Positions 36,737 to 44,835 of a DNA stretch of 49,200 nucleotides are shown piece by piece. The notes beneath the pieces were generated by a model. It saw nothing but the letters and a program-made list of their open reading frames with translations. It was not told the origin of the DNA and did no database searches. Source of the stretch: an uncultured Clostridia bacterium (lineage in GTDB: Bacteria; Bacillota; Clostridia; Christensenellales; Borkfalkiaceae); NCBI GenBank assembly GCA_945917475.1, contig CAMEHL010000002.1:1-49200 (forward strand). The letters are read 5' to 3'. The translations under genes were made by a program, and so were the position numbers. The first letter of the stretch is position 1. Every line of letters starts with the position of its first letter.

Positions 36737-38272
36737 TTATGCAATCGAGTCTATGCAGATTTCGCTGTTAGCGATGTATCCCGTGATACCCGCCGCGTTT
36801 TCGCCGATTGCGCAGTCGTGCGAAGAATCGCCGTAGGAAACGTAATAGTTCGCGTAAGCAGCGTAATAATACGGGACTGAGCCAAAGTAGGACGGGTTAT
36901 AATGTCCCGAAACGGAGGTCGGGGTATGGAGAATGCAGTAGTTCTTTAACGGGCTGTCGCTGCAAACGACGGGGATATCGGTAAGTTCTACAATGCCTTC
37001 AAATTGATAACCTGATTTTTCTTCGAACGTATTGTTGGTTACGGTAACGTTATTTATAATCGTTCTGTCTTCGTTCGCGCTGCTGCGCAAAACTAAACCT
37101 GCAAGTCCGCCCATGTTATAAGTACCCTTAATCGTGTTGTTTGAAGAAGTGCAATCGGTAAACGTTATCTGTGCGTTGCGGTCGGCAGCCATACCTACGA
37201 ACGCGCCAATCTTTCCGAAACCTTCTATCTTGCTGTATTTTACGGATACGTTCTCGAAAACGCAGTTGCCGTAAACGTATCCGACGATACCGCCGACGAC
37301 GTTTCTGCTTAAACCTTCGTTTATCTTGCTGTATTTGAACGAAATGTTTTTAATCGTCGTTAAGCCTGCCGAATCCTGCGAGAAAACGCCCGCGCCGTAA
37401 CCGGAATTCAATCCGCCCATTGTCGCCAGATAGGAGACTGTATAACCGTTACCGTCAATGGTGATGCCGCTGTTGTCTGCCGCTCTTAAATTAACGGGTT
37501 TCCATACCAGCCCCGTATTATAGAAACTGATATTGCGCATAATCTGTATCGTTTTATTCTTATAAGACGTTCCTGCATTTACGCTCTTGCCCCAGTTCAT
37601 AAAATCGGTCGCGGTGTAAACGTACACGTTGTTTTCGGTATCCTGATTTTCTACCGTCGCGTTGCCTTGTACCGCTTCTACGCAATACTCTATCTGGCAC
37701 GATTTATTCTGATATTCGTCGTCTGCCGTAATCGGAAGTTCGATTTCGACGGGAATCGATTCCACGTTATTTTGGTCGGGAGAAAGCGTTGTCCAGTCGG
37801 AAACCGCCGTCCAGCCCTGATATGTATCGCCGTTTATCGTGATGTTTAATCCCGAGAAAAGACCTTTATCCGTTTTCGCCATCAGAAGCGTGCGATACTG
37901 TACCGCAACGTCGCTGTCGTTGGTAACGTCTATTTTGAACGTTACTTTGTCGCCCGGCGTCATTTTGTCGAGTTTTACCGTGTTTCCGTCGGTAATCTTT
38001 GCAGTGCCGCCGTTAGTAAATGCTTCGCCTGCGACGTTCGCGTATTCGTACTTAAATCCGTTTTCGTCTACGAGCGTTCCGTCTTGCGCCGCTTGCGCAG
38101 AGTAAAGGGCAAGTTCGCTTGCTTGCGCCACAACGTCTACCGTGCCCGAAGATATGGCTACGTTTACTTTGCTTTCGCTCGTGAACAGGGCGAAAGTACC
38201 GCCTACGGAGAGACTCGCGCAGAGTGCGATTGTCGCTACCGCCGACGCAATAACTTTTGTTTTCTTTTTCAT
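36737..38272 (-). CDS. SipW-dependent-type surface protein with GLUG/beta-helix-like repeats
   Basis: near-identical N-terminus to 34004..36640; repeats such as VGGIVGYVYGNCVFENVSVKYSKIEG. Confidence 0.72.
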   Translation of the reverse strand: MKKKTKVIASAVATIALCASLSVGGTFALFTSESKVNVAISSGTVDVVAQASELALYSAQAAQDGTLVDENGFKYEYANVAGEAFTNGGTAKITDGNTVKLDKMTPGDKVTFKIDVTNDSDVAVQYRTLLMAKTDKGLFSGLNITINGDTYQGWTAVSDWTTLSPDQNNVESIPVEIELPITADDEYQNKSCQIEYCVEAVQGNATVENQDTENNVYVYTATDFMNWGKSVNAGTSYKNKTIQIMRNISFYNTGLVWKPVNLRAADNSGITIDGNGYTVSYLATMGGLNSGYGAGVFSQDSAGLTTIKNISFKYSKINEGLSRNVVGGIVGYVYGNCVFENVSVKYSKIEGFGKIGAFVGMAADRNAQITFTDCTSSNNTIKGTYNMGGLAGLVLRSSANEDRTIINNVTVTNNTFEEKSGYQFEGIVELTDIPVVCSDSPLKNYCILHTPTSVSGHYNPSYFGSVPYYYAAYANYYVSYGDSSHDCAIGENAAGITGYIANSEICIDSIA

Positions 38273-39047: not shown

Positions 39048-39770
39048 TTATTCGGCTTTTACGTCCGCCGCGTTTTTCGCGTTCGCATAGTTAAGTTTGC
39101 GGCGGAGTTTCGCCTGTTCTTTTTTATAAGCCCTTTCTTCTTCTATTGCCTTTACCGCAATGGAAATGCTGTCTTTTACCGCCGAAAGAGTAGCCTCGTC
39201 CGTTACCTTTATCGAAACGGGGGCTTGTTTTACGGCGACTTTGTTGTCGTTTACGTAATTCTTGAACGCGAGATTGGGTATGACCAACTCGCATATTATT
39301 ACGCCGCGTCTGATTTTTATTTTCACGAAAGTGCTTCTGCCCACTTTGTATTCTTCCGCCCCCGAGTTTTTATAGCGTTTGCTTCCGTCTACCGCCATCG
39401 CGCACCGCACTATTTCGTCGTAATATCCCTTTTGTTCCGCGGAAAGTTCCAGATATTTTTCGTCCAGCGTAGAACGCTCCGCCGAAAACGCTATCGTGTT
39501 TTCGGAAAGTTCCGTTGCGTTCGCCGCGGCTGCCGCGGTTTCAGGCTGCTCTTCGGCAGGGCGGCTCATTGCCGCGCAAACGGCGTATTCCGTTCCGTTC
39601 GCTTCGAACGCGTCGGTGTCGGGCAGTTTCCCGACGGACAGCGATTGGGCGGCTTTGCGTTTTTGCCGTTTCTCCTTTTCTTCAAGCACCACGTCGCGAC
39701 CTGCTATAAACACGAAAAAAATGCCTATAAGAATTGCCGCAACGATAAAAATGTTAATCATTACTTCCAT
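39048..39770 (-). CDS. membrane-anchored protein of unknown function within the SipW/TasA-like operon
   Basis: start at 39770 (MEVMINIFIVAAILIGIFFVF) with AAGGAG; one N-terminal TM then charged region. Confidence 0.6.
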   Translation of the reverse strand: MEVMINIFIVAAILIGIFFVFIAGRDVVLEEKEKRQKRKAAQSLSVGKLPDTDAFEANGTEYAVCAAMSRPAEEQPETAAAAANATELSENTIAFSAERSTLDEKYLELSAEQKGYYDEIVRCAMAVDGSKRYKNSGAEEYKVGRSTFVKIKIRRGVIICELVIPNLAFKNYVNDNKVAVKQAPVSIKVTDEATLSAVKDSISIAVKAIEEERAYKKEQAKLRRKLNYANAKNAADVKAE

Positions 39771-39795
39771 AAATGTTTCTCCTTTTCGGCTCAGT

Positions 39796-40584
39796 TTAAT
39801 TTCCGTCGCAGTTATCGGACGGATTCTCCGCCGCATTTTTCTGATTTTGTAAAAGTGCAAGCCGACGTTTCAGTTCTTCTATTTCTTCGGTTTGCCGTTG
39901 CTCTTTTTCCTTTGCCTTTTCCTTTTTGTCCGCGCTTAATACTCTCACGAGTCTTGCGATTTCAAAGCCGATTATGATAAAGCAGGGGATTATAATAAGG
40001 CAAATCACGCCCACGGTTGTTTTGAACGCATATACGATTATGCCGAGAATATAACTCTGTCCGGTTACCTTGCCTATTATATAATTCGGGCTGTCCGTCA
40101 GAGAAGTGTCTATTGTTTGCCGCAACTGTTCCGAATCGGCGTTTTTGTTGTCGCCTTCGAGCGTGATGATATACCCGCCCGAATCCTTTTCTTCTATTGA
40201 AACGATACGGTGGGTTATGGTTTCCTGCCTTGTGTAAACGTATCTGAAAGTAAGCACGTCGCCGACTTTGAGACTTGCGTACCACTCTTTTTTTTGTTCT
40301 TCGTCTTCGGGCGCAACCTGCACGAAGATACATGATTTAACGGGAATACTTTTTATTCTGTATCCGCTTACGTCCGTCAGTTCGCATTTATCCATAGAGT
40401 CCGAGCGGACGAAACGCAGTTGATACCCGAACACGGTCGCCGTCCCGTCGCTGTCCTTTTTGGACGCTATGCTTAATACGAGAGCAAATAATGCAAAGAG
40501 TATTATGAAAAAAAGCGCCACGTCGACCGTAACGCGCAGCACTTTCTTTATCTTCGGTTTTTTTTCCGCCTTTTCGCTATTCAT
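39796..40584 (-). CDS. sipW: SipW-type (ER-type) signal peptidase I
   Basis: S26 motifs: RSDSM (Ser), GDVLTFRY, ETITHRIVSI (His in place of Lys), C-terminal TM and coiled tail. Confidence 0.85.
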   Translation of the reverse strand: MNSEKAEKKPKIKKVLRVTVDVALFFIILFALFALVLSIASKKDSDGTATVFGYQLRFVRSDSMDKCELTDVSGYRIKSIPVKSCIFVQVAPEDEEQKKEWYASLKVGDVLTFRYVYTRQETITHRIVSIEEKDSGGYIITLEGDNKNADSEQLRQTIDTSLTDSPNYIIGKVTGQSYILGIIVYAFKTTVGVICLIIIPCFIIIGFEIARLVRVLSADKKEKAKEKEQRQTEEIEELKRRLALLQNQKNAAENPSDNCDGN

Positions 40585-40605: not shown

Positions 40606-41079
40606 TCACGAACGTTTTGCGTTCAGGTCGATATAGAAAGTTATATCGCTTTCCTGAGTTTCGTTGCTCGCGGATTCGGACATCGTGTAACTCAGAGTTA
40701 TTACGGAAGTGTTGCCGCCGAGCGCAACGGTATCGCCTTTAAGCAATTCTCCCAAAGGTTTTTCGATTATTGTATTTTCCGTTATTATTGCTACGGTAAC
40801 GTAATCTTTAAGCACGCCGTCGTCGTCGCCCTGAAAATTTAACGTTACGTCGTATTCTCTCGCGTTATCGCCCGCAAGGTTTATAACGTATTCGGCGGTT
40901 TTGCCGGGGTAAAGGTTACCGATTTCCGCTTTTAAGGTTCTGTGCGTATTGCCGTCTACGACGACAGTCGTATTATCGCTGAGTTTTGCGTCCGAACGGT
41001 TAGACCACACGATTGATATTCCGGTAAAAGATATTATTACGGTAACGATGCTTAAAATGAACAGTAGTTTCTTGCTCAT
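40606..41079 (-). CDS. small TasA/camelysin-like secreted protein
   Basis: N-terminal signal anchor (KKLLFILSIVTVIISFTGISIVWSNRSDAKLSDN), PGKTAEYVINLAGDNAREYDV; RBS GGAAGGA before ATG at 41079. Confidence 0.6.
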   Translation of the reverse strand: MSKKLLFILSIVTVIISFTGISIVWSNRSDAKLSDNTTVVVDGNTHRTLKAEIGNLYPGKTAEYVINLAGDNAREYDVTLNFQGDDDGVLKDYVTVAIITENTIIEKPLGELLKGDTVALGGNTSVITLSYTMSESASNETQESDITFYIDLNAKRS

Positions 41080-41126
41080 AATTCCTTCCAAAAATTTTTC
41101 AATAAACCTGTTTAAGCAATAAAAAA

Positions 41127-41152
41127 GTTCGCGGATTAATCTAATCCGCGAA
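41127..41152. repeat. left inverted recombination-site-like repeat (IR-L)
   Basis: GTTCGCGGATTAATCTAAT...; 25-bp core TTCGCGGAT-TAATCTA-ATCCGCGAA. Confidence 0.75.
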
Positions 41153-41230
41153 TCTTTTTCCGTTTTTTGTCCAAAAATCGGATATAAACAGGTGATTTTT
41201 TCGTTTTTTTACGATTTTGTTTTGTTTTTG

Positions 41231-41259
41231 TTGACAATTTATATATATAATGTTATACT
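41231..41259 (+). promoter_or_regulatory. strong promoter inside predicted invertible segment, now pointing right
   Basis: TTGACA-17-TATACT. Confidence 0.8.
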
Positions 41260-41274
41260 ATGTAAAAAAACTAG

Positions 41275-41300
41275 TTCATCTATTAGATTAATCCACGAAC
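41275..41300. repeat. right inverted recombination-site-like repeat (IR-R)
   Basis: TTCATCTAT-TAGATTA-ATCCACGAA(C); 41282-41300 matches the reverse complement of 41127-41145 at 18/19 positions. Confidence 0.75.
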
Positions 41301-41364
41301 AAACGGGGGCGGAGAGTTCTCGTTTTTTTTGTTGCCGTTTACAGGAAAATCTTGCCGAGTTTGT

Positions 41365-42249
41365 TCATATCATCGCGCACTTGTGTTCCATAAGGCTGTG
41401 CGCGTACCTTTTTAGCGTTACCGTCGGGTTTTTATGCCCTAAAATCTCGGATAGCGTTCTTACGTCCATTCCGCATTCCAGCGCCCGCGTGGCGAACGTG
41501 TGTCTTAAAGAGTGAATACCGCGCCGCGGTATCTTCAATTTTCTGAGCAGCAGTTCGAAACTTTTCTGATACGACCTGACCGAAACTTCTTCGCCCTTTT
41601 CTCCCGATATGAACCGCTTGCTTTCCGAACGCTTCTTTAAGGCTTTAAGCCAGGGCGATAACTGCCTTGGATAGGGGATTATTCTTCGCGAACTGTCCGT
41701 TTTCGGCTCGCCGATAACCTTTCTGTATTGCCTGTTCTCCCACCCGTCGAAACAGGATTTAGAAACTCTTATCGTTCTTTCGGCAAGGTCTATATCGTCC
41801 CATTCGAGAGCGAGCAATTCGCCCAACCGCAGCCCCGTGTAAAGACAAAGCACCACGCCGAACAGTTTGTCCTTTTTTCTGTCTTTTACGTATTTCTCAA
41901 TCGCTTTTTGTTCCGAAACGGTAAAGCACTCCACTTTTCTCTCGACCGATTTCGGTCTTCGTATCGCCGCCGAATACTGCTTGTTTACTACGCCCGTGTC
42001 CTGCGCCAGGGATAGCGAATTTTTAATGACCGCAATGACGCCCATTACCGTGTTAGAAGAATACTTGTCCGTCAGCCCCGCAACGAAACGTTGCAGTACG
42101 GGTGCGGTCAACTCGTCTAATCCGTAATTCCCCAACGCGCCCGACAGATGATTTATGACGATGCTGCAGTACTTGTAATAAGTTCTCTCTTTCTTTGTCG
42201 GCTTTACGTAATATTCAAGCCACTCGTTAAGCCACTCTGCGTATTTCAT
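41365..42249 (-). CDS. tyrosine recombinase / site-specific integrase
   Basis: catalytic signature TGLRLGELL (R), HSLRHTFATR (HxxR), LGHKNP (H), LKRYAH (Y). Confidence 0.9.
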   Translation of the reverse strand: MKYAEWLNEWLEYYVKPTKKERTYYKYCSIVINHLSGALGNYGLDELTAPVLQRFVAGLTDKYSSNTVMGVIAVIKNSLSLAQDTGVVNKQYSAAIRRPKSVERKVECFTVSEQKAIEKYVKDRKKDKLFGVVLCLYTGLRLGELLALEWDDIDLAERTIRVSKSCFDGWENRQYRKVIGEPKTDSSRRIIPYPRQLSPWLKALKKRSESKRFISGEKGEEVSVRSYQKSFELLLRKLKIPRRGIHSLRHTFATRALECGMDVRTLSEILGHKNPTVTLKRYAHSLMEHKCAMI

Positions 42250-42379
42250 TTTTTTTCTCCTTAAACAAAAAACCTCGTCGCATTTTAAGGCGACGGTTAT
42301 ATTATAGCCGTCGTTTTATTATTTTGAGAAGTTTTCGGCAAGCCATACCGTCGGCGTTATTTAAAAAAATTAAAAGGCG

Positions 42380-42988: not shown

Positions 42989-44491
42989 TTATTCGGCTTT
43001 ATCTATATTGCCGCTTATGGGCGCGTTAGGCGTTTCGTCGAAGTTTTTGCGCCCGTTTTCTTTAAGTTCCGTTATTACGGTTTTAGACAGGAACAGCAAC
43101 GCGAGCGCGTTGGGTATTACCATAAGGTAATTGAATAGGTCGGCACATTCCCAGACGAGATCGTTTGAGAGCAGAGAACCGAGAAAGATGAACGCGACCG
43201 AAAGCACCGAATAGACGATAGTGCTTTTCTTGCCGAACAGATACGTAAAGTTGATTTTCCCGAACAGATTCCAACTGATAATAGTCGAAAAGGCGAAGAA
43301 GAACAGGCATACCGCAACGAAAATCGCGGCGATTTTGTCGCCCACGCTTGCGTTGCCGAACAGGCTCGCGATACCGAGTCTTACCATTGTGTTGCCGGAA
43401 TAGCCCGCGTTTTTCAGCGCGTCGGTGGGATTGCCGCCCGCCGCGACGGTTTGTTCGGAGATTTGCGTTATCGCGCCGTTGCCCGCGTAGAGCGTGGTCA
43501 GGACTATCAGCGCGGTCATCGTAAGAACGATGAAAGTGTCGATAAACACGCCGACCATAGCGACAGTGCCTTGTTCGTGCGGGGTTTTGACGTTAGCCTG
43601 CGCGTGGGCGTGCGGGGTAGAACCCATACCCGCTTCGTTGGAGAAAAGCCCTCGTTTCGCGCCCATACTGATAGCCGTTTTAAGCGCGTAACCGATACCG
43701 CCGCCGATAATCGCGTCGGGCGTGAACGCGTATTTGAATATAAGCCATATTGCTTCGGGCAGCACGGTTATTTTGCAGCATATAATGATAAGTCCGCCGA
43801 GCAGGTAAACGGAAGCCATAACGGGGATAAGTTTTTCGGTAACGGACGCGAGTCTGGACACGCCGCCTATAAAAATCAGCGCGGCGAGAAAAGCCACGAT
43901 AAGCCCGATTATCCAGGGCTGAATATCAACCGCCTGCGTTACCGCGCTGGTAATCGAGTTGGACTGTACCATAGAACCTATAAAGCCGAGCGCGATTATG
44001 ATTGCGACGGCGAAGAACCCCGCAAGGAATTTCCCGAACCCGCCCTTGAACGCTTTCTTAATATAGTATACGGGTCCGCCCTGAACCGAACCGTCCGCGC
44101 CGACTATGCGCGTTTTCTGAGCGAGAACGGCTTCGGAATAAATGGTAGCCATACCGAAAAACGCGATAATCCACATCCAGAAAATCGCGCCGGGGCCGCC
44201 CGTTAAAATGGCGGCGCACGCGCCGACTATGTTGCCCGTTCCGACCTGAGCCGCGACGGCGGTCGTGAACGCCTGGAAAGAACTCATTCCGCTCTTGTGC
44301 TTGCCGCCGTTCAGTTTCAATTTGCCGAACACGTTTTTCATACCCTGTCCGAAACAGCGAATCTGCACGAACCGCGTTTTAATCGTATAAAACAAACCCA
44401 CGCCGACGAGCAGGATTACGAGAACGTAATCTGAAAGATACTTGTTGACCGTCTGAACCACGGTTAAAAGACCGTCTAAAAATTTTTGCAT
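42989..44491 (-). CDS. sodium:alanine/glycine symporter (AgcS family)
   Basis: GTGNIVGACAAILTGGPGAIFWMW, KRGLFSNEAGMGSTPHAHA; real start at 44491 (MQKFLDGLL), the rest of the ORF-track call runs into the riboswitch. Confidence 0.92.
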   Translation of the reverse strand: MQKFLDGLLTVVQTVNKYLSDYVLVILLVGVGLFYTIKTRFVQIRCFGQGMKNVFGKLKLNGGKHKSGMSSFQAFTTAVAAQVGTGNIVGACAAILTGGPGAIFWMWIIAFFGMATIYSEAVLAQKTRIVGADGSVQGGPVYYIKKAFKGGFGKFLAGFFAVAIIIALGFIGSMVQSNSITSAVTQAVDIQPWIIGLIVAFLAALIFIGGVSRLASVTEKLIPVMASVYLLGGLIIICCKITVLPEAIWLIFKYAFTPDAIIGGGIGYALKTAISMGAKRGLFSNEAGMGSTPHAHAQANVKTPHEQGTVAMVGVFIDTFIVLTMTALIVLTTLYAGNGAITQISEQTVAAGGNPTDALKNAGYSGNTMVRLGIASLFGNASVGDKIAAIFVAVCLFFFAFSTIISWNLFGKINFTYLFGKKSTIVYSVLSVAFIFLGSLLSNDLVWECADLFNYLMVIPNALALLFLSKTVITELKENGRKNFDETPNAPISGNIDKAE

Positions 44492-44561
44492 AAAAACTCC
44501 CGAAAAAAAAGAATCGCTTTCCGATGAAAAGCAACTCCGAGAAAAAAGCAAATAAAAAAAT

Positions 44562-44660
44562 TGCCCTGTCCTTTCGCCTGAGAGATTTGGGGAAAGCGTT
44601 CCCTTTGCACCTTCGGCACTTCCCATAAAGGGGAAGATTCTCCAGAGTTTCTCCGTCCGC
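44562..44660 (-). ncRNA. glycine riboswitch (single aptamer apparent)
   Basis: minus strand CGGAGAAACTCTGGAGA...GTGCCGAAGGTGCAAAGG...AATCTCTCAGGCGAAAGGACAGGGC matches the glycine aptamer consensus; upstream of AgcS symporter. Confidence 0.88.
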
Positions 44661-44835
44661 GGTTTCGGTAAAGATTCCGCCGACATCATCGAATAACGGG
44701 AGAATTATAGCACAAAGGATAAGCGTTGTCAACGGATAAAGGGCGATAAAAGCGGAAAAAGGGGCAATTTTGTAAAATAATCGCAAAACCGCGCGTTTTC
44801 TGACGGAAATGTTCGGATAAGAAAAAGGGGCGCGG

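Follow-up and report, generated by a model that had tools for sequence, protein, structure and literature searches.

Promoters that invert under the action of a linked tyrosine recombinase are a familiar theme in bacteria, and surveys have covered clostridial invertons together with their linked recombinases. In the Escherichia coli switches fimS, hyxS and ipuS (FimB/FimE/FimX/IpuA/IpuB), the promoter lies in a short invertible segment, a tyrosine recombinase gene adjoins it and the targets are surface proteins; the ipuS repeats are 7 bp. In C. difficile, RecV serves several switches across the genome, among them cmr, an invertible promoter driving the adjacent operon. At cwpV, the promoter lies outside the invertible region, and an inverted repeat folds into an intrinsic terminator when the switch is OFF. 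The Bacillus tapA-sipW-tasA operon pairs a SipW-type peptidase with SipW-dependent secreted proteins. A survey of the hCom2 community (PMC11892184) describes a clostridial inverton group (139) found regularly beside one tyrosine-recombinase family (invertase group 35), which may be related to the family reported here. In the open-access literature, we found no description of this recombinase/site family or of a phase-variable SipW operon.

The locus studied here lies in a 49,200-nucleotide stretch of DNA (the window), part of contig 2 of a 1.35-Mb assembly that is 84% complete (Table 1). Judging from sequence comparison, we put the probability at about 0.87 that it is a self-contained invertible-promoter switch, one of a family of paired recombinases and sites that is widespread within a single order of gut Clostridia, whose switch-bearing hosts are Pumilibacter-, Borkfalkia- and Christensenella-like organisms. 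Like the E. coli switches, it places a promoter in a short segment beside a tyrosine recombinase gene and surface-protein targets; unlike them, it has a recombinase that matches the FimB-type invertase model only weakly, and the sites of its family take the form of long dyads whose half-sites follow one consensus throughout the family and whose 7-bp centre is private. As with cmr, a clostridial invertible promoter would drive an adjacent operon, although in this family each recombinase sits beside its own switch, a contrast with RecV drawn by description, and the window genome holds one site pair. The predicted OFF-state terminator recalls cwpV, but the promoter is inside the segment. The operon resembles tapA-sipW-tasA in encoding a SipW-like peptidase and SipW-dependent-type secreted proteins, whereas it has no TasA at the curated cutoff, a different gene content and a predicted invertible promoter.

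Table 1 Features of the switch locus and its neighbours in the window.
Feature	Position	Strand	Basis or remark
878-aa secreted protein, camelysin/TasA-type N-terminus and beta-helix	34004..36640	-	PF12389, PF13229; operon membership from spacing only
511-aa secreted protein, camelysin/TasA-type N-terminus	36737..38272	-	PF12389; operon membership from spacing only
SipW-dependent-type signal-peptide protein, 209 aa	38353..38982	-	TIGR04088 above cutoff
270-aa ORF, membrane protein, no assigned function	39048..39860	-	conserved in congener operons
SipW-like signal peptidase, 262 aa	39796..40584	-	NF046067, E 7e-17, below curated cutoff
First operon gene, 157 aa from ATG, secreted/membrane-anchored, no known family	40606..41079	-	homologs head congener operons
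Operon-side recombination site (predicted)	41127..41153		two 12-bp half-sites around ATC; 7-bp centre 41137-41143
Predicted invertible segment, between site centres	41140..41287		sequence; inverted homologous segments in relatives
Promoter TTGACA-17-TATACT, OFF, pointing away from operon	41231..41259	+	consensus match
Recombinase-side recombination site (predicted)	41274..41300		7-bp centre 41284-41290, inverse of operon-side centre
Predicted terminator, hairpin and T8	41304..41330	+	would stop OFF transcript before antisense run into recombinase gene
Recombinase-family conserved C-terminal tail, out of frame with ORF	41339..41368	-	relatives
Tyrosine recombinase, 294 aa	41365..42249	-	Pfam PF00589 and PF14659; relatives
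Promoter-like site TTCTCA-18-TATAAT ahead of recombinase gene	42301..42330	-	consensus match only

According to the proposed mechanism, the tyrosine recombinase would bind four 12-bp half-sites with the consensus GTWCRYNNAWTR, and strand exchange within the 7-bp region common to both sites would flip the segment, which spans about 147 bp. The state captured in the assembly is OFF: the promoter faces the 3' end of the recombinase gene and a hairpin terminator should halt its transcript; in the flipped state, transcription would run from about 41161 into the operon for the SipW-like signal peptidase and secreted proteins. From the conserved linkage between gene and sites, we infer that the window recombinase acts on the window sites. 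The operon would be controlled in this way, with surface-protein phase variation as the probable result.

A sequence-only reading had already proposed an inverted site pair here, and we recovered the same letters at both places: TTCGCGGAT-TAATCTA-ATCCGCGAA on the operon side (41128-41152) and TTCATCTAT-TAGATTA-ATCCACGAA on the recombinase side (41275-41299). Its 18/19 inverted repeat is likewise present (arms 41127-41145 / 41282-41300) and was reached in none of 1000 dinucleotide shuffles of the intergenic region, so that an inverted site pair does flank a short segment. Across the genome, only two true copies of the site were found; two further motif hits, no better than the level of a reversed-pattern control, were dropped. 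The promoter that this reading had placed within the segment matches the consensus at 11 of 12 positions, with a TG preceding the -10 element, and its direction is set by the orientation of the segment. This score was met by 18 of 2000 shuffles of the AT-rich segment, and taken alone the match is only moderately significant. A weaker payload-ward match, TTTACA-17-TATAAA, also lies within the segment. We agree that the captured state is OFF, as the promoter points away from the operon. In the 41079-41127 stretch of the minus strand, where the earlier reading saw no promoter belonging to the operon, our scan likewise reported no sigma-70-like site. Recomputed about the site centres, transcription after inversion would indeed start near 41161, about 80 nt ahead of the first ATG.

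A DNA search of the switch among congeners returned just short AT-rich matches of marginal significance; as this was uninformative, homology was traced through the recombinase. Relatives about 50-60% identical (E <= 1e-60) turned up in 93 of the 396 genomes that represented the order and in 33 of its 138 sampled genera, and 11 other genomes in the genus sample hold homologs at 55-60% identity. Named carriers are Clostridia bins, Candidatus Borkfalkia, Candidatus Fimimonas, Candidatus Coproplasma, Christensenella-labelled bins and Pumilibacter muris CLA-AA-M08. One family member sits on a Bacteroidales-labelled contig, by mis-binning or transfer. Beyond the order, we found only a few distant recombinases (39-49% identity), and three of these, from other orders, had no site pair. 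Most relatives carry, as in the window, an inverted repeat pair directly 3' of the recombinase gene, followed by a gene in the same direction. Scanning with the motif CRYNNAWTRNNNYAWTNNRYG (at most two mismatches per site, identical inverted 7-bp centre required) placed a site pair after the recombinase in 56 of the 71 loci with enough flank and none in the remaining 15, versus 0 of 76 upstream controls; among loci outside the motif derivation, it was found in four of five (0/27 controls over all loci of that set). The order recombinase, site, promoter, site, payload is collinear in dozens of loci, and the promoter lies within the segment across the family more strongly than in shuffles. Three loci hold two successive switches of the same family, two of them with a small gene between the switches.

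The sites themselves follow a shared grammar. The half-site consensus came from aligning four half-sites per switch, and its C4, A9 and T11 are nearly invariant. Across 43 switches, near-duplicates dropped, the paired sites match at half-site positions 11 and 12 in all 43 and at position 10 in 20. In 12 switches position 12 varies, in every case matching between the two sites and never within one site, and the 43 switches contain 23 different 3-bp cores. Because the site centre was chosen for maximal agreement, core included, part of the core identity is built in, which does not apply to the sharp edge separating position 11 from position 10. Strand exchange across 7 bp should produce such a pattern, and it bears out the earlier 9-7-9 description of the sites: paired sites agree across 7 bp and vary freely beyond. 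OFF switches also scored as more palindromic than ON switches (30 vs 6), a difference that we set aside as evidence given that the loci are non-independent and the centre was fitted.

Natural inversion is visible among the relatives. When the segments were aligned both ways round, 29 pairs scored far above shuffled sequences, and 12 of these pairs were inverted. Pairs in the same orientation had identical promoter calls throughout, and inverted pairs had opposite calls, save for the P. muris locus L066, undecided by score, whose promoter is the reverse of its sister's. That sister, L065 from a metagenome bin, shares flanks 99.8% identical on both sides, while the segment is 46.9% identical forward and 97.5% reversed. 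In a further pair (L084 and L118), the flanks are collinear and the segment is 99.3% identical reversed. Both orientations are thus seen for homologous switches in relatives, and the window copy itself is predicted to invert. Assemblies showed 40 switches OFF, 11 ON and 2 undecided, counts that are consensus states of partly related loci and not switching rates. Together with the conserved architecture, these comparisons support the invertible switch first proposed from the letters and make it very likely for the window locus.

The label "SipW/TasA-like" for the operon stands in part. The peptidase is SipW-like by clear homology, although its score of 61.5 bits falls below the curated cutoff of 190; a TasA ortholog was not found (20.6 vs 450 bits), the resemblance being to camelysin-type N-terminal domains. 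The two large proteins with such domains probably belong to the peptidase operon. The core operon also occurs in four congeners (L135-L138), where the site motif is absent. Two have a divergent XRE-type regulator together with a TTGACA-17-TAGAAT or TTGACA-17-TAAAAT promoter facing the operon, and a third has TTGACA-17-TATAAT in that direction; these promoters were identified by eye. Since these congeners share the operon without the switch, the window switch looks like a plug-in module, added to an operon that elsewhere is under fixed promoters. The symporter-like gene found upstream of the window recombinase (42989-44689) has a counterpart downstream of the SipW operon in L138, suggesting a rearranged neighbourhood.

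Could the switch be real by descent and yet be stuck in the OFF position in this strain? SAM-like and Phage_integrase domains are present in the recombinase, and R141, K183, H246, R249, H272 and Y282, which we take to be catalytic from general knowledge of the family, are invariant in the comparison and in frame. In nearly all of 80 relatives, however, the protein finishes with an MMN(K/R)(L/V)GKLL-type tail, which the window encodes out of frame, following CAMI-stop. The earlier description of a complete recombinase therefore holds for the expected catalytic residues and is doubtful for the C-terminus. Either a genuine, recent mutation or an error in the assembly may account for the frameshift. 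A structural model of one relative shows the tail prolonging the last helix, with low confidence, and E. coli IpuA without its 11 C-terminal residues still inverts its switch. With the catalytic residues intact, we consider a locked switch unlikely, though the most serious of the alternatives. It is a good deal less probable that an orientation-dependent terminator is the main control, as proposed for cwpV, with transcription entering from outside the segment. Besides the C. difficile precedent, terminators directed toward the payload were predicted at the sites in the OFF state (14 site tests over 52 switches) and in no case in ON. The window's operon-side site in OFF is a predicted terminator hairpin for operon-ward transcripts, changing from -15.5 to -1.6 kcal/mol upon in-silico inversion. 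The score was designed for E. coli, the window passes it by a slight margin (+1.9), and the loci, being related, do not count as independent. For most switches no site terminator is predicted, the promoter is inside the segment in the window and, beyond shuffle level, across the family, and its direction follows orientation in all homologous pairs. A site-embedded terminator acting only in OFF may complement promoter inversion as a weaker, secondary feature.

Two other readings fare worse. The recombinase might be a mobile-element integrase and the repeats remnants of its attachment sites, considering that the nearest solved structures are integrases and that phage integrases match at about 30% identity. 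The repeats are inverted rather than direct, at a fixed distance in dozens of loci, with natural inversions between them; we found no close phage or plasmid relative, nor similar DNA in plasmid records, and this origin seems very improbable. As for chance, the operon-side site doubles as a hairpin and has T-runs on either strand, as would befit a palindromic terminator beside an unrelated repeat in an AT-rich intergenic region. The shuffles and the arrangement conserved in relatives leave this scarcely credible, and a chance origin of the repeat pair is refuted by the comparative data.

The invertible-promoter switch precedes diverse payloads in the relatives. Lipoprotein-like payloads carry InlB-type or BspA leucine-rich repeats, and others are type III and MmeI-like methyltransferases, Snf2/DEAD helicases resembling defence proteins, a LytTR regulator, a NusG-like protein and a radical-SAM enzyme. 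On the recombinase tree, three payload classes, assigned by us, need 13 changes versus a minimum of 2, indicating that payloads have been exchanged repeatedly; the window recombinase forms a long branch without a supported sister. Tentatively, and at somewhat less than even odds, the family may constitute an order-wide portable cassette in which a linked recombinase and a private 7-bp crossover control unrelated payloads through promoter inversion and a site-formed OFF-state terminator. If the switch operates as proposed, one recognisable module would make surface-protein and restriction-modification genes phase-variable in common, though mostly uncultured, Clostridia of the gut and rumen, the recombinase and site consensus would provide a simple means to find such loci, and P. 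muris, being cultured, would allow a direct test. As the switches have half-sites in common but distinct 7-bp centres, they may also be of use as a set of mutually independent inversion tools. The switch precedes methyltransferase or defence-like helicase genes at nine loci (L059, L078, L112, L083, L104, L105, L108, L084 and L118), a placement that would render these genes phase-variable by promoter inversion. Three loci (L117, L119 and L125) have close recombinases and homologous switches with different payloads, which points to payload exchange.
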